From NCBI GenBank assembly GCA_937899625.1, contig CALCCB010000052.1:1-52961 (forward strand): 52,961 nucleotides of DNA, read 5' to 3'. The notes below the pieces were generated by a model, which did not search any database, was not told the DNA's origin, and was given only the letters and a program-made list of their open reading frames with translations. This stretch comes from an uncultured Bacteroidota bacterium (lineage in GTDB: Bacteria > Bacteroidota > Bacteroidia > Flavobacteriales_D > Crocinitomicaceae). This document shows positions 28,222-51,068 of the stretch, in pieces (positions within the stretch are counted from its first letter, which is position 1; the number at the start of each line of letters is the position of its first letter). The position numbers and the translations under genes were made by a program.

Positions 28222-29052
28222 TTAAATTTTTCGAGTTGATTTTTTTAGATCGACAAGGTCATGCATCGCAAGCGTTGCAGCTACTATTGCAAGGATTGGA
28301 GCGCAAGCTGCACTTATCCAAAGGATCAACTGAACGATATACGAACTTAAGCCGGTGAGAAAGCCATCAGAAAAATGTTCTCCCGAGAATAAGATGCTAA
28401 TATTAACCGGGACAAGGATCATCAATGAATAGATCATTCCTATTCCAACGACGAGTCCTCTGTGTTGTCTCATAAATACGATACTCTCTTCTACATTGAG
28501 ATCCATGCGCTCGTTCACATAATCAAGAAAGCTAAACCCGTAGTAAAAGAATCCGATGATGAAAGTCAAATAAAATATCGGCGATGAGGTCGGGTCTTCC
28601 CAGCCAAAATAAGAAATGAGATAAATGATCGTGAAAAAGAAATAATGCCAGAGAATGTTCCTGAAGGCTATTCTCATCCCTCGTATGATATCCTTCATCA
28701 ACTGTTTCAAGTCAAAGGGATAGGTTTTCCCTGTTAAGATCTTTTCGCATTTCATGCTTAGATAGGACAATAATGGCGAAAGAATAATTACGACGAGATA
28801 CTTCGCAAATTTCATCAATGTCAAGCCGATCGTTATTTCAATTAACATTCGGATGAGGCTCCATACAATTCCATTCATGGAGTCTGCTTCGATCTCGGTT
28901 TGTCGCTCTTGTAAATGATTGCCCAACTTATAAAGGATGAGCATCAATATAGCAGGAGGGATAAAAAACCAGTACAATTTATGCGTTCGTATAAAACGAA
29001 TGGCTTTAACATATGCTTTAAGGCCAAGAATAAGATCTTTTAAGAAGCGCAT
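28222..29052 (-). CDS. EI24-domain (CysZ-like) membrane protein
   Basis: A protein of about 276 residues with an N-terminal GLKAYVKAIRFI amphipathic segment and four or more hydrophobic helices, matching the EI24 domain of the CysZ/etoposide-induced 2.4 family. CysZ moves sulfate in proteobacteria; the substrate in Bacteroidetes is unknown. Two Met codons are close together (29058 and 29052); the second fits the usual MRFLKD start. It is divergent from purB with only 84 bp between them. Confidence 0.8.
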   Translation of the reverse strand: MRFLKDLILGLKAYVKAIRFIRTHKLYWFFIPPAILMLILYKLGNHLQERQTEIEADSMNGIVWSLIRMLIEITIGLTLMKFAKYLVVIILSPLLSYLSMKCEKILTGKTYPFDLKQLMKDIIRGMRIAFRNILWHYFFFTIIYLISYFGWEDPTSSPIFYLTFIIGFFYYGFSFLDYVNERMDLNVEESIVFMRQHRGLVVGIGMIYSLMILVPVNISILFSGEHFSDGFLTGLSSYIVQLILWISAACAPILAIVAATLAMHDLVDLKKSTRKI

Positions 29053-29136: not shown

Positions 29137-30492
29137 ATGTCATTGAGTCCATTAACAGCAATTTCTCCCATAGACGGAAGATACAACAGTAGAACAGTAG
29201 AACTGCAGAAATACTTCTCAGAATTTGGGTTGATCAGATACAGGGTGATCGTTGAGATCGAGTATTTCATTTCTCTATGCGAAAATAAAGTTGGACCATT
29301 AAATGATTTTCCTTTGGAGAAGATCGTTGGGATTCGAAAAATAGGCGATGATTTTTCAGAAGATGATGCACTGAGGATCAAAGAAATTGAAAAAACGACG
29401 AATCATGATGTCAAGGCAGTGGAGTATTTTCTAAAAGAAGAAATGACAAAACTGGGCTTGGAAAAGTATCTTGAATTTATCCATTTCGGCTTAACTTCTC
29501 AGGATATTAATAATACTTCAGTTCCTCTTTCATTGAAAGAAGCAATTAGTGAAGTTTACATACCACAACTTGAACAATTGATCGGTAAGCTTGAAGAAAT
29601 GAAGCATGACTGGAAGGAAATCCCGATGTTGGCCAGAACACATGGTCAACCGGCTTCTCCAACGAGATTGGGGAAGGAGATCCAGGTGTTTTCGGAGCGT
29701 CTTTCTATTCAGTTAAATCAGTTAAAGAACATTCCGTACTCTGCGAAATTTGGTGGCGCAACAGGAAACTTCAATGCTCATTTTGTTGCTTTCCCAGAAA
29801 TTGATTGGGTGGCTTTTGCGAATCGCTTTGTGAATGACCAGTTGGGATTAAACAGAAGTCAAACGACTACCCAGATCGAACATTACGATAATCTGGCTGC
29901 TCTTTTTGACTGTTTGAAAAGAATAAACACGATCATTCTTGATCTGGACAGAGATATGTGGACGTATATCTCCATGGACTACTTTAAGCAGCGTCTAAAA
30001 GAAGGAGAAGTAGGATCTTCTGCAATGCCTCATAAAGTGAATCCTATCGATTTCGAAAATTCTGAAGGGAATATTGGAGTGGCGAATGCTTTATATGAAC
30101 ACCTTGCAGCGAAGCTTCCGGTGTCGAGATTACAGCGAGATCTAACTGATTCAACAGTATTAAGGGTTGTGGGCACTCCAATTGCTCATTCAATGATTGC
30201 GATGAAAGCTACCATGACGGGATTGAGTAAGTTATTATTGAACGAATCTGAATTTCAAGTCGATCTTGAAAATAACTGGGCGGTAGTCGCCGAAGCAATT
30301 CAGACCATCTTAAGAAGAGAGGGTTTCCCGAAACCTTATGAAGCGCTAAAAGGACTGACAAGAAAAAATGAAAAGGTTTCTATGCAGTCGGTACACGCAT
30401 TTATTGATACATTAGACGTCTCAGAAAGTTTGAAATCTGAATTAAAAAGAATAACTCCGCAGAATTACACCGGAGTACAATTAGTAAAGTAA
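29137..30492 (+). CDS. purB: Adenylosuccinate lyase
   Basis: A 451-residue lyase of the fumarase/aspartase superfamily. It acts twice in purine synthesis, splitting SAICAR and adenylosuccinate to release fumarate. The signature SSAMPHKVNPIDFENSEG (about residues 290-307), with its flexible Ser loop, is complete. The RTHGQPASPTRLGKE region (about 167-181) holds the catalytic His. The start SPLTAISPIDGRY is typical of the PurB type found in Bacteroidetes and enterobacteria. It is followed after 18 bp by an unknown exported protein. Confidence 0.96.
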   Translation: MSLSPLTAISPIDGRYNSRTVELQKYFSEFGLIRYRVIVEIEYFISLCENKVGPLNDFPLEKIVGIRKIGDDFSEDDALRIKEIEKTTNHDVKAVEYFLKEEMTKLGLEKYLEFIHFGLTSQDINNTSVPLSLKEAISEVYIPQLEQLIGKLEEMKHDWKEIPMLARTHGQPASPTRLGKEIQVFSERLSIQLNQLKNIPYSAKFGGATGNFNAHFVAFPEIDWVAFANRFVNDQLGLNRSQTTTQIEHYDNLAALFDCLKRINTIILDLDRDMWTYISMDYFKQRLKEGEVGSSAMPHKVNPIDFENSEGNIGVANALYEHLAAKLPVSRLQRDLTDSTVLRVVGTPIAHSMIAMKATMTGLSKLLLNESEFQVDLENNWAVVAEAIQTILRREGFPKPYEALKGLTRKNEKVSMQSVHAFIDTLDVSESLKSELKRITPQNYTGVQLVK

Positions 30493-33804: not shown

Positions 33805-36351
33805 TTATTTGAAAATGATCTTCATTTCAACGCGTCTGTTCTTCTGACGTCCTTCGGGAGTATCATTCGAAGCAATTGGCATTGTTTCCCCGAAGTAAAG
33901 AACATATAAACGAGTTCCGTCGATTCCTTGAGAAATCATAAAGTTTCTAACTGCTTCCGCTCTCTTCTTAGAAAGGATCATGTTCTTTTGGTCATCACCA
34001 ACATTATCAGTATGCCCAGTGATTTGAAGACCCCATTCAGGCTTCTTCTGAAGAACCTCTGCCAGTTCAGTTAGTGAAGGGATAGAAACACTCTTTATGA
34101 TGTCTTTTCCTGTTTCAAATTCAAGGTTATCAAAGGCTGTTTTTAAGATTTCTTCGACTTCCTTTTCAATTTCTGGACATCCTTTATTTGCAATCGTTCC
34201 TGGAGTGTTTGGACAATCATCATCCTTATCAAGAACTCCATCGTTATCAGTATCCTGGTAAGGACAACCTTTGTTTGCAATTGGTCCTTTCAATGTAGGA
34301 CAGTCATCATCCTTATCCAATAAACCATCAGCATCAGTATCTGGCCAAGGACATCCATTGTTTTCTTTCGGTCCGAATACTGTTGGACATCCATCAAGGA
34401 AGTCAAGGATCTGATCACCATCTGTATCAGGACATCCGTCGTATACAAGTGGACCAGGTACATCTGGACACGCATCTTCGTCATCAATAATGCCGTCACC
34501 ATCCGTGTCAGGACATCCGTCGAATGCAACTAGACCAGCTACTTCAGGACACTTATCGTTTTTGTCAATAATACCATCTCCGTCAGTGTCAGGACAACCA
34601 TTGTACTCGCGTGCACCGTATACATCCGGACAAGCATCATCCTTGTCAGGAATTCCATCATTATCCTTATCCGGGCATCCCTGGAATTGAGCCAAACCAG
34701 CTTCTTGCGGACAAAGATCTTCAAGATCTTTGATTCCATCACCATCCGAATCAGGACATCCTTTGAACGCCCAAACACCTGGTACAACCAAACACTCATC
34801 AAGGTCATCAGATACTTTGTCTCCATCGATATCAGATGGGTGAATATAAAGTACAGGCACTCTCAATCCAGCATAAACAGCTCCACCGTTGATCTTCTTT
34901 CCTGAAGCGAAAAGGAATCCAAAGTCGTTTACTCCAACTGTAAGTGGTCCTAAGCGTGTAGCCATACCAGCTTTAAATCCAGAGTAGTTATTGTAAGAGA
35001 TCGGCAAGTGAAGACCAAACCATGCATGATCAAAGCTAGGTGTCAAAGCAAATTGATTTGGTACTCTAACTCTATGCGGGTTCTTTCTGTTTTGAACATT
35101 GATCATTCCTGTAGCGCTCACATAGAACCACTTCCAGATATGATAATCGTACTGAAGACTAATTGCAGTTGGTAATTGCATGAAGAAAGTACTTCCTGTA
35201 TTCTCCTGTGCGGTCCAGTCAGCGTCAGTTTCAATTAAGTTATTGATAACAGAATCTACTTCGTTTAAAGAATTTACTCCATCGAACACATCTCTAAAGT
35301 AGAAAGGATTATCTGTGTTAACAGAGAAGTCACGACTCAAACCACCCTTAGCGAATTTCATACCACCAATGTCCAGAATCGAGATTCCTGCTCTCATTTT
35401 ATACTTCTCTTTGTCCTTTCTCCAAAGATCGGTCTCACCATCCATGTCGTACTTGTATTCTTTCCAGTCAGGTCTCCATTCGTATACAAATCCAAGATCA
35501 AGACCAATACCGAATTTTGATGCCGACTTTAAACTTGGGGTAACATCAGATCCTCCCAATGCATCCAACATTCCACCTGAGTGACCGTAAGACATATCAC
35601 CAGACAAATGAATAAAAGTTGTGTCGTTATCAACGTTGTATTTGAAGTTATTTGTATGAATATAAGCAGCTGTTAGTCCACTTAACCACTTCACTTCTCC
35701 TCCAAATTTCATGAAGTGCTCTCCGTCATCTTTCAGTACCTGTCCATAGTTTAGACCGTATTCTATCCATGTCATGTGGTTCATGTCCAACAGCTCTTCA
35801 TTGAACTTTTGATCCCATAATGATTGATAATCCCAGTCTTCTTCAAACAAAATTGCCAACTTCGGGTCAACATCATCCAGATTGGTGATCGAACGTAATC
35901 TTACCCCCGCTCCAACTGCAATGTTTGGTTTCACATGGAAAGCAAAGTTTAGGACATCTACCTGTACATTATTGTATATACCAAGTACTCTGTTTGTAGT
36001 GGCATCGTAATTTCTCGAAAGATATCGATCCATGAACGTTGAATCCGGAGCCATCCAGTCATTGTATGGATTGTCATATCCCGTTGTGGAGTTGTCGGGT
36101 TGGAATGATTTGTTCCACCATTTTGGCATGTCCACAGTGTTGAACGACCATCCGTTGTTCCATACAGCAAATCCCGAACTTCCCAAATTGATGTCTACAA
36201 TGAAACGGCTGTCCACAAAACTGGCAGGCTGAAGATCAAGAGACATAATTCCTCCGTAGTTACTGCTATGTACTCCAAGAAAAGTCTGAGCATTAAATAG
36301 TGAAGGAATTGCAATGAATCCTGCAAGGACAAATTGATACAGTTTTCTCAT
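33805..36351 (-). CDS. DUF5723 / thrombospondin type 3 / OmpA-family outer-membrane protein
   Basis: An 848-residue outer-membrane protein. A signal peptide (about 1-21) is followed by a DUF5723 beta-barrel region (about residues 22-500), a linker of about seven thrombospondin type 3 calcium-binding repeats (about 505-725, pattern DTDGDGIxDxxDxCP), and an OmpA C-terminal peptidoglycan-binding domain (about 735-848) with TGHTDNVG and a NRRVEMKI end. It would tie the outer membrane to the cell wall, with the calcium repeats making a stiff spacer. It lies 16 bp downstream of an unknown membrane-anchored protein on the same strand and ends in a strong terminator. Confidence 0.9.
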   Translation of the reverse strand: MRKLYQFVLAGFIAIPSLFNAQTFLGVHSSNYGGIMSLDLQPASFVDSRFIVDINLGSSGFAVWNNGWSFNTVDMPKWWNKSFQPDNSTTGYDNPYNDWMAPDSTFMDRYLSRNYDATTNRVLGIYNNVQVDVLNFAFHVKPNIAVGAGVRLRSITNLDDVDPKLAILFEEDWDYQSLWDQKFNEELLDMNHMTWIEYGLNYGQVLKDDGEHFMKFGGEVKWLSGLTAAYIHTNNFKYNVDNDTTFIHLSGDMSYGHSGGMLDALGGSDVTPSLKSASKFGIGLDLGFVYEWRPDWKEYKYDMDGETDLWRKDKEKYKMRAGISILDIGGMKFAKGGLSRDFSVNTDNPFYFRDVFDGVNSLNEVDSVINNLIETDADWTAQENTGSTFFMQLPTAISLQYDYHIWKWFYVSATGMINVQNRKNPHRVRVPNQFALTPSFDHAWFGLHLPISYNNYSGFKAGMATRLGPLTVGVNDFGFLFASGKKINGGAVYAGLRVPVLYIHPSDIDGDKVSDDLDECLVVPGVWAFKGCPDSDGDGIKDLEDLCPQEAGLAQFQGCPDKDNDGIPDKDDACPDVYGAREYNGCPDTDGDGIIDKNDKCPEVAGLVAFDGCPDTDGDGIIDDEDACPDVPGPLVYDGCPDTDGDQILDFLDGCPTVFGPKENNGCPWPDTDADGLLDKDDDCPTLKGPIANKGCPYQDTDNDGVLDKDDDCPNTPGTIANKGCPEIEKEVEEILKTAFDNLEFETGKDIIKSVSIPSLTELAEVLQKKPEWGLQITGHTDNVGDDQKNMILSKKRAEAVRNFMISQGIDGTRLYVLYFGETMPIASNDTPEGRQKNRRVEMKIIFK
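34170..34840 (-). repeat. Coding tandem repeats (thrombospondin type 3 units)
   Basis: About seven degenerate units of roughly 75-100 bp within the OmpA-family gene encode Asp-rich calcium loops, each closed by a GCPD or GCPY/GCPW stretch. The units differ in sequence, so this is a protein repeat rather than a recent DNA expansion. Confidence 0.8.
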
Positions 36352-45184: not shown

Positions 45185-46984
45185 TTATAACGTGTATTTG
45201 TTTTCTGCGATGATCTTCTGTGCGATGATCTGTCTTGCTTCTTTCGGGTTGAACGGTTCTGTTTTCGTGAAACGTTTCAATCCCATCAACATCATTCTCA
45301 ATTCGTCACCTTCAGCGAAAGAGTTCAGGGCATCTTTTGCAGCCTTGTTGATTCGGTCCGCTGTATCGTAGAAGTAACACTTAACAATAGCGATCTGAAC
45401 TGCGCAATTTTCTTCACCTTTCAATTCGATCATTTTCTGAAGTCTCAGCAATGCCGATTCAGCCTGATAGGTCCATATCGACATATCCGCAATGTTCATC
45501 AGAACCTCTTGTTCCTTACTTAAGGATTGCATTAGTTTCTGAACTGCACTTCCTGCTACCATCAGAATGGTCTTCTTGAAGCCTTCAAGATACTTTTCTT
45601 CATAACCAAGCGTTCCTTCAGGCGCATAACCGAAGTCGGGAATAGACATCAATTCATTGGCAACGCTCATTGCCGGACCCATCAGATCCAGTTCTCCTTT
45701 CATTGCTCTTCGGAGGATCATGTCTACTGTTAACATTCGGTTGATCTCATTGGTTCCTTCGAAGATCCTGTTGATACGTGCATCTCTATACGCTCTTTCC
45801 ACAGGAGATTCTGCTGAATATCCCATACCACCATAGATCTGAACCGCCTCGTCTACACAATAATCCAGACATTCAGATCCTGCGACCTTAAGCATTGCGC
45901 ATTCTGCTGCGAACTGTTCAATACCTTTCAAAGTCGCCTGTCCTTTCGGCATTCCTGAAGCGATCAAACCTTGAATTGCGTCATCAATATTCTGACCTGC
46001 GCGATAGGTTGCAGCTTCCAATACCCAAGTACGGATCACACTTTCGGCCAATTTAAAACGGATCGCACCATACTTCGAAATAGGTCTTCCGAATTGTTCT
46101 CTTTCATTGGAGTAATTCACCGCGTCATTGATCGTTGCTTTTGCTCCGCCCAATACACCTGCAGCCAATTTGATCCTTCCGATGTTCAAAATATTGATTG
46201 CGATCTTGAATCCATTCTCTCTCTCTGAAAGCATGTTCTCTAAAGGAACTTTCACATTGTTAAAGAAAACCTGACGAGTGGATGATCCCTTGATACCCAT
46301 TTTCTTTTCTTCCGGGTTCAATGAGATCCCTTCAGAATCTGCTTCCACAATAAATGCTGTGAGATTTTTGTCATCATCTATCTTAGCGAACACGGTCATC
46401 ATGTTAGCAAATCCACCATTGGTGATCCACATCTTCTGACCATTGATGATGTAATGCTTTCCATCGTCACTTAATTTCGCCTTTGTTTTTCCTGAATTCG
46501 CGTCAGAACCAGAACCCGGTTCAGTTAAACAATAAGCTGCTTTCCATTCACCTGAAGCAAGCTTTGGAATATACTTCGCTTTTTGTTCTTCTGTTCCGTA
46601 ATACAAAAGTGGTAATGTTCCGATCCCGGTATGAGCACCGTAAGCAACTGAAAAAGAATATCCTTTACCCAGATGTTCTGTTGCGAGAAGTGATGTTTTG
46701 AAATCCATTCCCATTCCTCCAAGATCTTCGGGTACTGACATACCAAGCAGTCCTAATTCACCTGATTTATCGAGTAGAGAAGGCATCAGGCCTTCTTCCA
46801 TTTTATCAATGCGTTCGATGTTTGGAACGATCTCCTGATCGATAAAATCATCACACATCTGTGCGATCATTCTTTGCTCTTCAGTCCATTCTTCCGGAAT
46901 AAAGATTTCACTTGGGTTTGTCTTTCGGATGAGAAATTCTCCTCCTTTGATCGGATTGTTATTTGCTTCCATTTCTTTTGACAA
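45185..46984 (-). CDS. Acyl-CoA dehydrogenase (long-chain type)
   Basis: A 599-residue flavoprotein that oxidises acyl-CoA to trans-2-enoyl-CoA in the first step of beta-oxidation. FAD and substrate motifs CLTEPGSGSDANS and WITNGGFANM (about residues 150-190) are complete, as is the C-terminal YGGMGYSAESPVERAYRD followed by RIFEGTNEINR, whose Glu is the catalytic base in very-long-chain enzymes. A C-terminal helical extension (about residues 430-599) is like that of the VLCAD/ACAD9 group. It is the last gene of the operon, 32 bp after the thiolase. Confidence 0.94.
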   Translation of the reverse strand: MSKEMEANNNPIKGGEFLIRKTNPSEIFIPEEWTEEQRMIAQMCDDFIDQEIVPNIERIDKMEEGLMPSLLDKSGELGLLGMSVPEDLGGMGMDFKTSLLATEHLGKGYSFSVAYGAHTGIGTLPLLYYGTEEQKAKYIPKLASGEWKAAYCLTEPGSGSDANSGKTKAKLSDDGKHYIINGQKMWITNGGFANMMTVFAKIDDDKNLTAFIVEADSEGISLNPEEKKMGIKGSSTRQVFFNNVKVPLENMLSERENGFKIAINILNIGRIKLAAGVLGGAKATINDAVNYSNEREQFGRPISKYGAIRFKLAESVIRTWVLEAATYRAGQNIDDAIQGLIASGMPKGQATLKGIEQFAAECAMLKVAGSECLDYCVDEAVQIYGGMGYSAESPVERAYRDARINRIFEGTNEINRMLTVDMILRRAMKGELDLMGPAMSVANELMSIPDFGYAPEGTLGYEEKYLEGFKKTILMVAGSAVQKLMQSLSKEQEVLMNIADMSIWTYQAESALLRLQKMIELKGEENCAVQIAIVKCYFYDTADRINKAAKDALNSFAEGDELRMMLMGLKRFTKTEPFNPKEARQIIAQKIIAENKYTL

Positions 46985-47016: not shown

Positions 47017-48195
47017 TTATAACATTTCAATAACTCCAGCTGCACCTTGTCCGGTGCCAACACACATCGTTACGATTCCATATTTCTGGTCTTTTCGCTT
47101 AAGCTCGTTCATGATCTGAACAGTTAGCTTTGCTCCGGTACAACCAAGCGGGTGTCCAAGAGCGATCGCACCTCCGTTCACGTTCACGATGTCCGGATTA
47201 AGTCCTGTTTCTCTGATCACTGCCAAAGATTGTGAAGCGAAAGCTTCATTCAATTCAAACAGGTTAATATCATTCAGATTTAATCCTGCCATTTTGATTG
47301 CCTTTGGAATAGCGTCCACTGGACCGATTCCCATAATTCTTGGTTCAACACCAACCACTGCGTATGAAGCCAGACGAGCAACCGGTTCAAGATTTAATTC
47401 TTTCACCATTCTTTCAGACATTACCAATACAAATGCGGCTCCGTCAGAAGTCTGTGATGAGTTTCCTGCTGTAACTGATCCACCATTGGCAAATACAGGT
47501 TTAAGTCTGCCCAGTGCATCCAAAGTACTGGCTCTTGGACCTTCATCAGTATCTACAATGTAATTTTTTACCTGGCGCTTCTCATTCTCATCAAGGAAAA
47601 TATGTTCCACTGAAACAGGCGCGATTTGATCTTTAAACCGACCTTCCTTGATCGCAGCGATTGCCTTTTCATGACTTTTTAAGGAAAACTGATCCTGTTC
47701 TTCACGACTCACCTTGTACTGTTCAGCAACTGCTTCGGCAGTAAGCCCCATTCCCCAATACCAGGTTGGATTTTCCTTTCCTACTTTAGGATTTGGAACA
47801 ATTCTCCATCCTCCCATCGCCATTACAGACATTGATTCCACACCACCAGCGATAATACAATCTGCCATTCCATGTTCGATCTTCGCTGCCGCAATGGCAA
47901 TTGTCTCCAATCCAGATGAACAATATCTGTTCACCGTCATTCCAGGCACTTTATCGGTGTTTAATCCCATTAAAGAGATCATTCTACCCACGTTCAATCC
48001 TTGTTCGGCTTCTGGTGTTGCATTCCCAACGATCACATCGTCAACTCTTTCTTTATCCAGTTGAGGAACACTTGCCATCAAATGTTTGATAACATCAGCA
48101 GCAAGATCGTCAGGGCGGTAAAATCTGAATCCACCTTTTCCGGCCTTACCAACCGCTGATCTGAATCCTGTTACAATATATGCTCTTTGTCCCAT
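47017..48195 (-). CDS. Acetyl-CoA C-acyltransferase (3-ketoacyl-CoA thiolase)
   Basis: A 392-residue thiolase that splits 3-ketoacyl-CoA in the last step of beta-oxidation. The nucleophilic Cys is in NRYCSSGLE (about residues 86-94), the ALGHPLGCTG region (about 343-352) holds the His, and the second Cys is in MCVGTGQGAAG near residue 380. It follows the four-helix-bundle gene and its repeat array in an operon with the dehydrogenase and the FadB-like protein. Confidence 0.95.
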   Translation of the reverse strand: MGQRAYIVTGFRSAVGKAGKGGFRFYRPDDLAADVIKHLMASVPQLDKERVDDVIVGNATPEAEQGLNVGRMISLMGLNTDKVPGMTVNRYCSSGLETIAIAAAKIEHGMADCIIAGGVESMSVMAMGGWRIVPNPKVGKENPTWYWGMGLTAEAVAEQYKVSREEQDQFSLKSHEKAIAAIKEGRFKDQIAPVSVEHIFLDENEKRQVKNYIVDTDEGPRASTLDALGRLKPVFANGGSVTAGNSSQTSDGAAFVLVMSERMVKELNLEPVARLASYAVVGVEPRIMGIGPVDAIPKAIKMAGLNLNDINLFELNEAFASQSLAVIRETGLNPDIVNVNGGAIALGHPLGCTGAKLTVQIMNELKRKDQKYGIVTMCVGTGQGAAGVIEML

Positions 48196-48201
48196 TTTTA
48201 T

Positions 48202-48233
48202 TGATTTTAGGATGTTTGGATGTTAAGACAACA
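48202..48233 (+). repeat. 8-bp-period repeat array, right-reading (thiolase side)
   Basis: On the plus strand four 8-mers follow without gaps: TGATTTTA, GGATGTTT, GGATGTTA and AGACAACA. The array lies between the thiolase start (48195) and the four-helix-bundle gene, pointing towards the latter. It is the counterpart of the array at 48625-48664 in the opposite orientation. Confidence 0.65.
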
Positions 48234-48252
48234 TGATTTACCAAACATATTT

Positions 48253-48612
48253 TTACAATTCATTTTTTAATTTCCTTTTAAATGCTCCAATCATTTTCTG
48301 AAGTGACTCTAACTTCTGCAACGTCGAAGCTATCTCTCTTTTGTATAGTTCTTGAATAAGGATCAATTGTGTTTCAAGTTCATATGACGAAGAAATGGCA
48401 ATATTTAAAAAGTGAACAAATTCCTTTTCAGATGATCTGCCAGAGCCCTCTGCAATATTCGATGGAATTGATATCGCAGACCTGTTAATCTGAGAAATTA
48501 AAACAAACTTTTCATCAATAGGAAGTTCGGATGTAATGACATAAATGTCTTTGACAAGATCCATTGAATCTTTCCAAATCTTTAATTCCCTGAAGTTATG
48601 ACCCTTTTTCAA
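48253..48612 (-). CDS. Four-helix-bundle protein (S23 / 23S rRNA intervening-sequence family)
   Basis: A 119-residue helical protein of the S23/IVP family. The start HNFRELKIWKDSMDLV, the middle SIPSNIAEGSGR (about residues 53-64) and EFVHFLNIAISS (about 69-80) are family marks. Relatives are encoded in rRNA intervening sequences, and others (Avd) help diversity-generating retroelements; free-standing copies have no known role. It starts with TTG, since no in-frame ATG lies before the conserved FREL segment. It interrupts the beta-oxidation operon and is flanked by 8-bp repeat arrays. No reverse transcriptase is near, so it is not an Avd of a retroelement here. Confidence 0.88.
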   Translation of the reverse strand: MKKGHNFRELKIWKDSMDLVKDIYVITSELPIDEKFVLISQINRSAISIPSNIAEGSGRSSEKEFVHFLNIAISSSYELETQLILIQELYKREIASTLQKLESLQKMIGAFKRKLKNEL

Positions 48613-48624
48613 TGCTATATTTTT

Positions 48625-48664
48625 ATTAATCCAAATGTCTTGGAGTCTTAACGTCTTATTGTCT
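48625..48664 (-). repeat. 8-bp-period repeat array, left-reading (FadB side)
   Basis: Read on the minus strand, five 8-mers follow without gaps: AGACAATA, AGACGTTA, AGACTCCA, AGACATTT and GGATTAAT. In plus coordinates GTCT recurs at 48637, 48645, 48653 and 48661. The first unit overlaps the stop codon of the FadB-like gene (48663-48665). It reads into the four-helix-bundle gene. Confidence 0.75.
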
Positions 48665-51068
48665 AATTTCTTAAGATTTTTCCATACTTCACCAGACTCT
48701 CCAATCGTTCAAGCGTCTTTCTTTCGGTACATAATTCCACAAACGCCTTTCTTTCAAGATCAAGCAGATACTGCTCTGAAACAACCGTGTTTTCACTTAG
48801 GTCACCTCCACATAAAACAAAACCAAGTTTTTCAGAGATCACACGATCATGATCCGACATGTATTTTCCGGAAAGCATTGAATTGGCACCAACGTATACG
48901 ATTCCCAATCCTTCCAGTCCCATAACTGTGATGTTCTTTTCACGTTTTGGAGCAACATACCCTTTGTTAGACATTTCAAGGACAGCGGCTTTCGCTCTAC
49001 CCAATTGATGGTCACGGCTCACTACCACTTCATCAATACCTTCTCTCAAGTATCCAAGATCAAAGGCTTCATAGGCTGACGTCGCAACTTTTGCCTGTCC
49101 GATCGTAAGGAATCGTTCTCTCATTCGGTTGATCTTGATGTCACCATCCTTCAGCTCCTGAGAAAGTCGTTTTGCGAATTCTTTCGAACCACCACCACCA
49201 GGGATCAATCCTACTCCGAATTCAACCAGTCCCATATAAAGTTCTGCATGAGCAACAACTTTATCCGCATGCATTGACATTTCACATCCTCCTCCAAGAG
49301 CTAGATTGTGTGGTGCTACCACCACCGGAATATTTGAATAACGAATTCTCATCATGGTATCCTGGAATGCTTTTACTGCAAAGTTGAGCTCCTCCAGTTC
49401 CTGTTCAATGGCCATCATAAAGATCATTCCCACATTGGCTCCGGCCGAGAAATTCTGTCCGGTATTGGAGATCACTAATCCTTTGTAGTCTTTCTCAGCA
49501 ATTTCAATTGCTTTGTTAATTCCCTGGATCACTCCTCCACCAATGGTATTCATCTTCGTGTGGAATTCAAGATTCAAGACGCCATCTCCCAAATCAACAA
49601 GTGTAGTATCGGAATTACCCCAAACTTTATTCTCATCGCGAAGTGCGTCCAGAAGCACCAGATTTTCTGTTCCTGGAATTACCTTATATGTTTTGGAAGC
49701 AACATCATAATATTGCTTCTGTCCTTTTTCTGTTTTGTAGAAACTTGTTGCTCCGGAAGCTTTCATTTCTGAAACCCATCCTGCCACATTCTTTCCATTT
49801 GCTGCGATCAGTTCAAGACCTTTGTCCAGTCCAATGATATCCCACGTTTCAAAAGGACCGAGCTCCCATCCGAAACCGGCTTTCAGCGCATCATCGATCT
49901 TGTAAAGATTATCTGTGATCTCAGGAAGTCTGTTTGAAACATATGCGAATAATCCTGCAAATAATGTTCGATAGAATTCACCCGCCTTATCCGCTCCTGC
50001 AAAAAGCATTTTTGTTCGTTGCTTCAAGTCTTCAACCGGCTTCGTCATCTCTAAAGTTGCAAACTTCACTTTTTGAGATGGCTTATATTCCAAAGTATTC
50101 AGATCCAACACCTGAATCTCACTTTTCCCACCTTCTCCTTTAACTTTCTTATAGAAACCTTGTCCTGATTTAGAGCCCAACCAGTTGTTCTCAACCATTT
50201 TTGAAATGTAATCAGGCAATTCGAACAATTCTTTCGCCTCGTCATTCGGACAATTGGCTTTCAAACCGTTTGCTACGTGCACCAAAGTGTCGAGACCAAC
50301 AACATCACAAGTTCTGAAGGTGGCAGATTTTGGCCGTCCTAAGACAGGGCCAGTTAATTTATCGACCTCTTCTACAGTAAGCCCCATACTTTTTACCGCA
50401 TGGAACAGCGCCATGATGGAATAAACCCCAACTCGGTTTGCGATGAATGCCGGAGTGTCTTTACAAAGAACGGTCTTCTTACCAAGGATCTTTGAACCAT
50501 AATCCATCAAAAAGTCAACGATCGCAGGATCAGTTGATGGGGTAGGAATGATTTCCAATAACTGAAGATATCTCGGAGGATTGAAGAAGTGTGTTCCACA
50601 GAAATGTTTTTTGAAATCATCGCTTCTGCCATCAAGCATCATGTGGATCGGAATACCAGAAGTATTTGAGGTGATCAGAGTTCCCGGTGTACGGTATTGT
50701 TCTACTTTTTCAAATACTTGTTGTTTGATATCCAGTCGTTCGATCACCACTTCGATCACCCAGTCACAATCTTTGATCAAAGCCATATCATCATCAAAAT
50801 TTCCGGTCTTGATCCTTGTAGCAAAAGATTTCCTGTAAATAGGTGATGGATTCGATTTCAATGCAAAGTCAAGTGATCCATTAACGATCCTGTTTCTAAA
50901 AGCAGGATGCTCCATGGTAAGACCTTTAGATTGTTCCTCTGGAGTTGGTTCTCTGGGAACGATATCCAATAGAACAACCTGGCATCCGATATTGGCAAAG
51001 TGACATGCGATCCTTGACCCCATGACACCAGAACCCAATACGGCTACTTTTCTGATGTGTCTGTTCAT
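48663..51068 (-). CDS. 3-hydroxyacyl-CoA dehydrogenase / enoyl-CoA hydratase fusion (FadN-like)
   Basis: An 801-residue multifunctional beta-oxidation enzyme. The N-terminal half is a 3-hydroxyacyl-CoA dehydrogenase, with the NAD-binding LGSGVMGSRIA (about residues 11-21) and the FCGTHFFNPPRY substrate region. The C-terminal part (about residues 490-700) is an enoyl-CoA hydratase/isomerase with NFSAGANVG and LALGGGCEMS forming the oxyanion hole. This order (dehydrogenase first) is that of FadN of Bacillus, the reverse of E. coli FadB. It overlaps the MarR-family regulator by 4 bp, and its stop lies in a repeat array. Confidence 0.93.
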   Translation of the reverse strand: MNRHIRKVAVLGSGVMGSRIACHFANIGCQVVLLDIVPREPTPEEQSKGLTMEHPAFRNRIVNGSLDFALKSNPSPIYRKSFATRIKTGNFDDDMALIKDCDWVIEVVIERLDIKQQVFEKVEQYRTPGTLITSNTSGIPIHMMLDGRSDDFKKHFCGTHFFNPPRYLQLLEIIPTPSTDPAIVDFLMDYGSKILGKKTVLCKDTPAFIANRVGVYSIMALFHAVKSMGLTVEEVDKLTGPVLGRPKSATFRTCDVVGLDTLVHVANGLKANCPNDEAKELFELPDYISKMVENNWLGSKSGQGFYKKVKGEGGKSEIQVLDLNTLEYKPSQKVKFATLEMTKPVEDLKQRTKMLFAGADKAGEFYRTLFAGLFAYVSNRLPEITDNLYKIDDALKAGFGWELGPFETWDIIGLDKGLELIAANGKNVAGWVSEMKASGATSFYKTEKGQKQYYDVASKTYKVIPGTENLVLLDALRDENKVWGNSDTTLVDLGDGVLNLEFHTKMNTIGGGVIQGINKAIEIAEKDYKGLVISNTGQNFSAGANVGMIFMMAIEQELEELNFAVKAFQDTMMRIRYSNIPVVVAPHNLALGGGCEMSMHADKVVAHAELYMGLVEFGVGLIPGGGGSKEFAKRLSQELKDGDIKINRMRERFLTIGQAKVATSAYEAFDLGYLREGIDEVVVSRDHQLGRAKAAVLEMSNKGYVAPKREKNITVMGLEGLGIVYVGANSMLSGKYMSDHDRVISEKLGFVLCGGDLSENTVVSEQYLLDLERKAFVELCTERKTLERLESLVKYGKILRN

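Follow-up and report, generated by a model that had tools for sequence, protein, structure and literature searches.

What is a small gene of the S23 (23S_rRNA_IVP) family doing between two genes of a beta-oxidation operon, and what are the short tandem repeats that bracket it and face one another? The question is raised by a 52,961-nucleotide stretch of DNA (hereafter the window), positions 1 to 52,961 of contig CALCCB010000052.1 from an uncultured Bacteroidota bacterium of the Crocinitomicaceae (genome G000). An earlier note, made from the letters of the window alone, had described a four-helix-bundle gene between inward-facing arrays with an 8-base-pair (bp) period, and had suggested a non-autonomous mobile element or an RNA-based insert. 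The answer that we favor, and regard as reasonably probable, is that the insert is a copy of a widespread selfish element that joins an S23 gene to a pair of 7–8-bp direct-repeat arrays facing inward, a counterpart in protein operons and intergenic regions of the S23-encoding intervening sequence (IVS) of 23S rRNA, and that it spreads by homing-like lateral transfer. At this junction, close relatives either have the S23 gene together with its arrays or lack the whole block. Across the family, the unit with its matching, polarized ends prefers certain sites and appears to have moved laterally in some species pairs.

An insert between two operon genes

The operon lies on the minus strand and reads FadB-like gene, thiolase, acyl-CoA dehydrogenase, with the S23 gene between the first two. 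Its features are as follows.

48200..48664, minus strand: the insert, 465 bp, filled in G000 and empty in its relative G014; boundaries within a few bases
48253..48612, minus strand: S23 / 23S_rRNA_IVP four-helix-bundle gene, 119 amino acids (aa), TTG start
48625..48664, minus strand: 5′ array, upstream of the S23 gene, five 8-bp units of the TTAAGACN kind; overlaps the FadB-like stop codon
48202..48233, minus strand: 3′ array, downstream of the S23 gene, four 8-bp units in opposite orientation; 6 bp before the thiolase start
48663..51068, minus strand: FadB-like host gene on the 5′ side, 3-hydroxyacyl-CoA dehydrogenase / enoyl-CoA hydratase (PF02737, PF00725, PF00378)
47017..48195, minus strand: thiolase (acetyl-CoA C-acyltransferase), host gene on the 3′ side (PF00108, PF02803, TIGR01930)
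45185..46984, minus strand: acyl-CoA dehydrogenase, the next operon gene

The coordinates that the earlier note gave for gene and arrays proved correct when re-read on the sequence, as did its two details of fit: the 5′ array overlaps the FadB-like stop codon (48663–48665) by two bases, and the 3′ array ends just short of the thiolase start (48195), leaving a gap of 6 bp. Its assignment of the gene to the S23 family is borne out by matches of the product to PF05635 at 114.9 bits (Pfam gathering score 33.8) and to TIGR02436 at 113.2 bits (cut-off 24). The best PDB match is 2gsc_A (E 3.7e-17), 2gsc being annotated XCC0516. The G000 genome holds two S23 genes.

The nearest relative, G014, is 97.0% identical over 4.9 aligned kb at the locus and is without the 465 bp found in G000 (48200–48664). 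This 465-bp difference is the S23 gene plus both arrays. G012, the next nearest relative, has the same empty FadB–thiolase junction as G014. The suspicion that the gene had come between operon neighbors that would otherwise adjoin is upheld by S23-free, short junctions in G014, G012, G011, G020, and others; the empty sites that the earlier note proposed to seek in the operons of relatives thus exist. Across 46 genomes, the junction carries S23 in 19 (in G024 as inferred across a contig break) and none in 25, with two left unresolved. Three close relatives, 91.6–94.2% identical at the locus, exhibit three states: one S23 subtype in G023, another in G021, the two subtypes being only 54% identical, and in G005 a palindromic insert without S23. 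This last insert (L035) is about 100 bp long, is of CCCCCTTTAAAGGGGG type, and occupies the junction where relatives have S23. In G045 (L273), the same junction holds another gene in place of S23, which we take to be nucleotidyltransferase-like, with no visible arrays; the junction therefore accepts other inserts too. Short repeats occur at the S23-free junctions of G051, G055, and G043. Visual inspection of filled and empty junctions showed no target-site duplication, the element ends being placed to within a few bases. For G000 itself, a gain of the insert is one simple reading.

Arrays in this copy and across the family

On the plus strand, 48625–48664 parses into five 8-mers, four of which end in GTCT, while 48202–48233 parses into four 8-mers of GGATGTTA type. 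On the gene strand, the 5′ array contains the 8-mer GTTAAGAC and the 3′ array its exact complement, GTCTTAAC, an example of the opposite orientation of the two 8-bp-period arrays. The 5′ flank shows lag-8 agreement at 27 of 52 bases, for which shuffling gives p = 0.002, or 0.012 once the choice among lags 5–12 is allowed for; this level is reached in the 53-kb window solely at the 5′ array and at position 51054. Taken alone, these arrays are merely suggestive and the evidence from this copy is moderate, so that the case is decided on the family, of which this copy is a rather degenerate example. The observation here exceeds chance because the same architecture, in different sequence, recurs at many other S23 genes.

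Such genes are common, with at least one in 54 of 60 genomes of relatives and in 232 of 296 genomes sampled across the phylum, where a single genome may hold as many as 15 copies or more. The first set of loci comprises 111 S23 loci among the matches listed, 108 of them with both flanks (three were dropped for short flanks). The second is a separate collection of 80 named loci, 78 usable with two left out; it is mostly of Bacteroidota, and its few Clostridia, Oscillospiraceae, Ignavibacteriae, Betaproteobacteria, and Nomurabacteria labels belong to metagenome bins and may be wrong. A third set holds 30 loci from a phylum-wide sample, and a cyanobacterial set holds 12 loci from 12 of 38 matching plasmid records. 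The check proposed in the earlier note, whether other S23 genes carry arrays, came out positive in each, that is, in the sets of 108, 78, and 30 and at the 12 cyanobacterial plasmid loci.

Averaged over the first set, the autocorrelation of the flanks has sharp peaks at lags 7, 14, and 21, with smaller ones at 8 and 16, on both sides of the gene. No such peaks appear in control windows 400–690 bp upstream. Among flanks that are periodic singly, the best lag is 7 in 30 (5′) and 33 (3′) and 8 in eight (5′) and 14 (3′). The 8-bp period first noticed here thus holds for this copy and for part of the family, which is mostly of 7 bp. The repeat unit is locus-specific and varies by site (TTAGTGA, GGCAATA, GAATTAT, CTGAGAGA, etc.), yet it is often common to both arms of one locus. 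Arms match their own partner with a median score of 31, against 17 for swapped arms (108 loci), and the own partner is preferred over all others at 37 of the 108 and ranks in the top six at 74. The advantage persists when arms are swapped within one kind of site, 25 versus 19 at the sdhA site and 30.5 versus 18 at the fadB site; it is missing at the dinB–dnaE-like site (37 versus 36.5), where the arrays are similar between species. The second set repeats the peaks at 7, 14, and 21 and reaches an arm score of at least 26 at 61 of 78 loci, compared to 8.9% of swaps. In the third, the same lags recur and the corresponding figures are 12 of 30 and 3.8%.

Lags 7 and 14 dominate in the cyanobacterial plasmid set, and eight of its 12 loci score at least 26. 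In a textbook case, GGGAACA arrays precede the gene and GTTCCCT arrays come after it. L284 is an exception, in that the arrays closest to its gene share one direction and the arm match arises from sequence farther out. Two cyanobacterial junctions deserve separate mention. S23 with heptamer repeats lies between cas6 and cas4 of CRISPR (clustered regularly interspaced short palindromic repeat) operons in L284 and L292, on Pseudanabaena and Anabaena plasmids, making this a recurrent junction. In L286, on a Nostoc edaphicum plasmid, S23 with long arrays stands antisense between two ribonucleotide reductase subunit genes, nrdB and nrdA.

Three genomes, sampled over 0.85 Mb, supplied 670 control genes, the S23 genes of those stretches included; their arm scores are set against first-set scores only, while the polarity control serves both polarity sets. 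An arm score of at least 26 is attained by 75 of 108 S23 genes and by 14 of 670 control genes, and of these 14, three are S23 genes and one is a GIY-YIG-like gene with a different palindromic repeat. At a threshold of 17/24, two-sided arrays flank 31 of 108 S23 genes versus one of 670 control genes, the one being the copy in the window itself. The arms are also polarized. Among loci scoring at least 26, the 5′ arm is G-rich and the 3′ arm C-rich in 63 of 75 in the first set (opposite in two, neither in 10) and in 50 of 61 in the second (opposite in two, neither in nine); of the 136 well-paired loci in all, 113 have the G-rich strand running inward and four outward. Polarity in 625 control genes divides 228:191, and 10:8 among the 30 with a score of at least 24. 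Inverted pairs could face in or out; well-paired S23 arms nearly always face inward. The arms of the copy in the window obey this rule, with a skew of +0.13 before the gene and −0.29 after it.

Arrays of 7–8 bp also stand alone. In G002:C21 (L162–L181), solo arrays without S23 lie at about 77664, 95477, 305147, and 354227 of the joined stretch, mostly intergenic as judged by open frames, although the one at 95477 may fall in a gene start; possibly they are relics or seeds of S23 elements. The window contains a solo 8-bp-period array, AACAGTAG, at 29176–29217, about 120 bp upstream of a minus-strand open frame (28224–29052). Its position 34175–34596 holds tandem repeats of 81 and 87 bp.

Site preference and evidence of lateral transfer

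The S23 proteins cluster by gene junction, cleanly at sdhA–sdhB and less so at fadB–thiolase. In a tree of 111 proteins and 124 columns, many of whose forks are unresolved, the number of changes needed is one for sdhA–sdhB (15 proteins), two for fadB–thiolase (18), and one for the dinB–dnaE-like junction (six), compared to 5.8–13.1 in shuffles; junction types were called by peptide motifs, with one example of each checked. One clade of 16 rows consists of the 15 sdhA proteins and a single other.

Superimposed on this site fidelity are islands of identity. Among 17 same-site species pairs with both flanks, S23 identity exceeds that of both flanking genes by at least 5 points in six and falls at least 5 points below both in none. 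Each of the six also has 95–100% identity over the 90 bp after the S23 gene, more than in either flanking gene. The G005/G023 island stretches from the 5′ array to about 70–100 bp inside sdhB, with the gene at 96% and the 3′ side at 99%, against 85%. In G004/G008, the S23 gene is 99.4% identical against 86%, and the outer 5′ array does not exceed the flanks in identity; the G005/G007 pair does not have its 5′ array in common. The nonsynonymous rate (dN) is below the synonymous rate (dS) in all 11 pairs reported, some members being common to several pairs, and the S23 protein therefore works. Purifying selection on the protein alone is insufficient to account for the islands, because conservation extends to synonymous sites and to the 3′ array. 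Together, these comparisons support lateral movement for part of the S23 family, in some species pairs. Free transposition to new sites was considered and set aside: the single same-genome pair compared (L119/L140) is 85% identical and thus not recent.

Counter-evidence and rival explanations

A number of results weigh against a homing selfish element. In the window itself, the 3′ flank agrees at lag 8 in 21 of 49 bases (p = 0.05, rising to 0.31 once the lag is chosen), the arm-to-arm match is poor, with a score of 17 that is equalled by 58 of the other 107 downstream arms, and the RNA fold is ordinary (z = −1.07). Across the first set, periodicity is singly significant (p ≤ 0.02) in only 41 5′ and 47 3′ flanks of the 108 loci, arm scores fall below 26 at 33 of 108, 17 of 78, and 18 of 30 loci of the three sets, and solo arrays without S23 exist. 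S23 proteins of the fadB site are intermixed with those of other sites, 72 ungrouped rows of the tree being uncounted. No S23 excess of at least 5 points is seen in 11 of the 17 same-site pairs, and in the six pairs that have it, the 100 bp before the gene are 82–96% identical and stand above both flanks in only four, in one by 1.4 points. The branching of G000, G014, and G012 is unresolved (support 56), so loss as well as gain is possible at the G000 junction, and a gain there is not proven. Arm mismatches over 74 loci comprise 83 G-U, 86 A-C, and 199 others, with no G-U excess. As to partner enzymes, RVT_1 (reverse transcriptase) gave no hits in G000 or in S23-rich genomes such as G029, which has eight S23 genes, and Y1_Tnp gave none in G000 (94.6% complete), compared to its presence in 39 of 60 genomes searched. 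Finally, the authors of PMC4990558 consider that S23 is probably not made from their IVS in vivo and that the RNA matters more, which speaks against a role of the protein in that element.

Several of these points bear on an IVS acting at the level of mRNA, which we judge to be on the unlikely side, and which is compatible with the selfish-element reading as its RNA step. According to this proposal, the arms would pair in the polycistronic transcript, RNase III would cut the stem, and the S23 segment would be excised; the mRNA would be left in two pieces, and the element would therefore sit between cistrons. Arms do match within a locus, those of L083, a G002 copy, fold into a stem around the gene (z = −1.73, one of 20 shuffles as good), and a 23S rRNA IVS is cut by RNase III (PMC4990558). 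Opposed to this are the parity of G-U and A-C mismatches (83:86), the 23 of 108 copies not co-directional with both neighbors, the cyanobacterial copy antisense between nrdB and nrdA, and the weak fold in the window. The RNA-based insert suggested in the earlier note is thus not supported by the single test made, that of mismatches and co-directionality. Since G-U versus A-C mismatches show no bias, RNA pairing is not made the main claim; an RNA version of the hairpin is plausible by analogy with the IVS of rRNA but gains no support from wobble pairs.

It is rather improbable that S23 is an ordinary operon gene passed on by vertical descent, such as a regulator, whose slippage-prone arrays have a function in translation of the operon or in processing of its mRNA. 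Clustering by junction across genera would follow from such descent, as would dN below dS, the 85 of 108 copies co-directional with both neighbors, and the 11 pairs lacking an S23 excess. Yet relatives 97% identical differ in its presence, dissimilar subtypes occupy one junction in close relatives, S23 is 96–99% identical where the neighbors are 85–88% (G005/G023, G004/G008, G005/G007), and some copies have opposite-running neighbors on one or both sides. That the arrays are primary, as slippage-made or mobile repeats of the kind known as short tandemly repeated repetitive (STRR) sequences, with S23 genes as passengers or as insertions into them, strikes us as quite improbable: two-sided arrays flank 31 of 108 S23 genes and none of the 669 controls besides the copy in the window, the inward polarity is fixed, and the six pairs conserve the 3′ array along with the gene. 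In its favor are the solo arrays, the short repeats at the S23-free junctions of G051, G055, and G043, and the heptamer repeats common in some bacteria, sometimes as opposite-strand pairs (PMC4679880, PMC4692102, PMC2700814). Chance, whereby short AT-rich intergenic sequence merely seems periodic, finds a foothold in the marginal p values of the copy in the window; recurrence in four sets of S23 loci, with controls for the first, refutes it for the family and leaves it a negligible prospect.

A possible mode of movement

For the selfish element that we favor, the mode of movement and any RNA excision are inferred. By pairing, the matching arms may loop out the element, in nascent RNA or in single-stranded DNA, as a hairpin; an insert just after a stop codon would thereby be tolerated, as in 23S rRNA. 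The S23 protein may bind the arms or the hairpin, and may help the copying or recombination machinery of the host to place the element into empty homologous junctions. Movement would then be homing, not free transposition, and the arrays would lengthen and shorten by slippage. A bolder generalization, which we advance tentatively and as somewhat doubtful, is a cross-phylum class of homing selfish elements built from S23 and inward, G-rich heptad or octad arrays, of which the rRNA IVS would be one special niche; at least part of the classic STRR heptamers of cyanobacteria and other bacteria would be its ends or relics of such ends, and it would move without a recognized recombinase, by S23-assisted copying into homologous junctions.

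Several candidate identities and partners were tried and dropped. A reverse transcriptase partner was abandoned given the absence of RVT_1 from G000 and S23-rich genomes, and a Y1 transposase partner, or a system of the IS200–REP (repetitive extragenic palindrome) kind, given the lack of a hit in G000. Phage origin found no backing in a tblastn search with the other S23 protein of G000, which matched none of 50,697 phage records. Integron cassettes were no more than considered before being set aside. A DNA transposon or miniature inverted-repeat transposable element would have a terminal repeat sequence conserved between copies, which is not the case here, the unit being locus-specific and the swapped-arm median being 17. 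The non-autonomous mobile element of the earlier note is supported in part: the support concerns lateral transfer in some pairs, and no partner enzyme was found, with no RVT_1 or Y1 transposase hit in G000.

The proposal assigns a testable role to each component: S23 would be the protein of a mobile element, and the arrays would form its ends. The natural presence/absence pairs and the identity islands can be used for studying movement.

Comparison with known systems

The association of S23 genes with arrays is real and widespread, and is undescribed as far as the literature was searched; within that search, outside which most subscription papers and all bioRxiv preprints lie, PMC4990558 alone among the papers listed links S23 to flanking repeats. 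In the papers on heptamer repeats, the terms “23S” and “four helix” have no occurrences in the searched main texts of PMC4679880 and PMC4692102, nor does “S23” in that of PMC4692102.

Among diversity-generating retroelements, the accessory protein Avd bears a weak sequence relationship to S23, at 22.4 bits. This is below the model cut-off of 80, and RVT_1 has no hits in G000. A second small element resembles the S23 unit in outline. In G002:C21 (L162–L181), at about 334403–335150 of the joined stretch, a 99-aa gene that we take to be GIY-YIG nuclease-like is enclosed by palindromic repeats of the CTTCGAGAGCCTCAG kind in inverted arrangement, with an arm score of 59. It shares the plan of a small gene between inverted repeats and differs in both gene and repeat, its array scores at lags 7 and 8 being 11 and 14 of 24.

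Nearer in repeat structure are the STRR or heptamer sequences, reported in cyanobacteria, Beggiatoaceae, some Bacteroidetes, and Xanthomonas (PMC4679880, PMC4692102). These are intergenic 7-bp direct repeats, sometimes in convergent pairs, with 70 and 75 cases of such pairs in two Xanthomonas genomes (PMC4692102); here, by contrast, the arrays bracket an S23 gene. Geobacter metallireducens has tandem hepta- and octanucleotide repeats, some in opposite-strand pairs, annotated as predicted regulator binding sites (PMC2700814). They resemble the present arrays in their four to five tandem units of 7 or 8 nucleotides, opposite-strand pairing, and variable spacing, and differ in being read as regulator sites; “four helix” has no occurrences in the text of PMC2700814.

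The closest known system is the S23-encoding IVS of 23S rRNA. According to PMC4990558, one such IVS has a 28-bp terminal stem, an S23 gene, and excision by RNase III, with heptameric repeats, two or three according to the strain, preceding the S23 gene; S23 proteins are said there to be without known function, and the Xanthomonas homologue to be a homopentamer. The two systems share an S23-family gene, sporadic distribution, and the character of a tolerated insert (PMC4990558). Complementary ends and heptameric repeats beside the gene are likenesses at the level of the family; the copy in the window has poorly matching arms and a period of 8 bp that is significant in the 5′ flank only. They differ in site, which here is a protein-coding operon or intergenic position, the FadB-like–thiolase junction for the copy in the window, rather than rRNA. 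Two conserved 23S motifs had no match in the fetched flanks of the S23 loci tested. They differ also in that here arrays stand on both sides, the unit is locus-specific, and a genome often holds several copies. The element is thus like the 23S rRNA IVS in anatomy and unlike it in position, and the comparison bears on the origin of rRNA intervening sequences.
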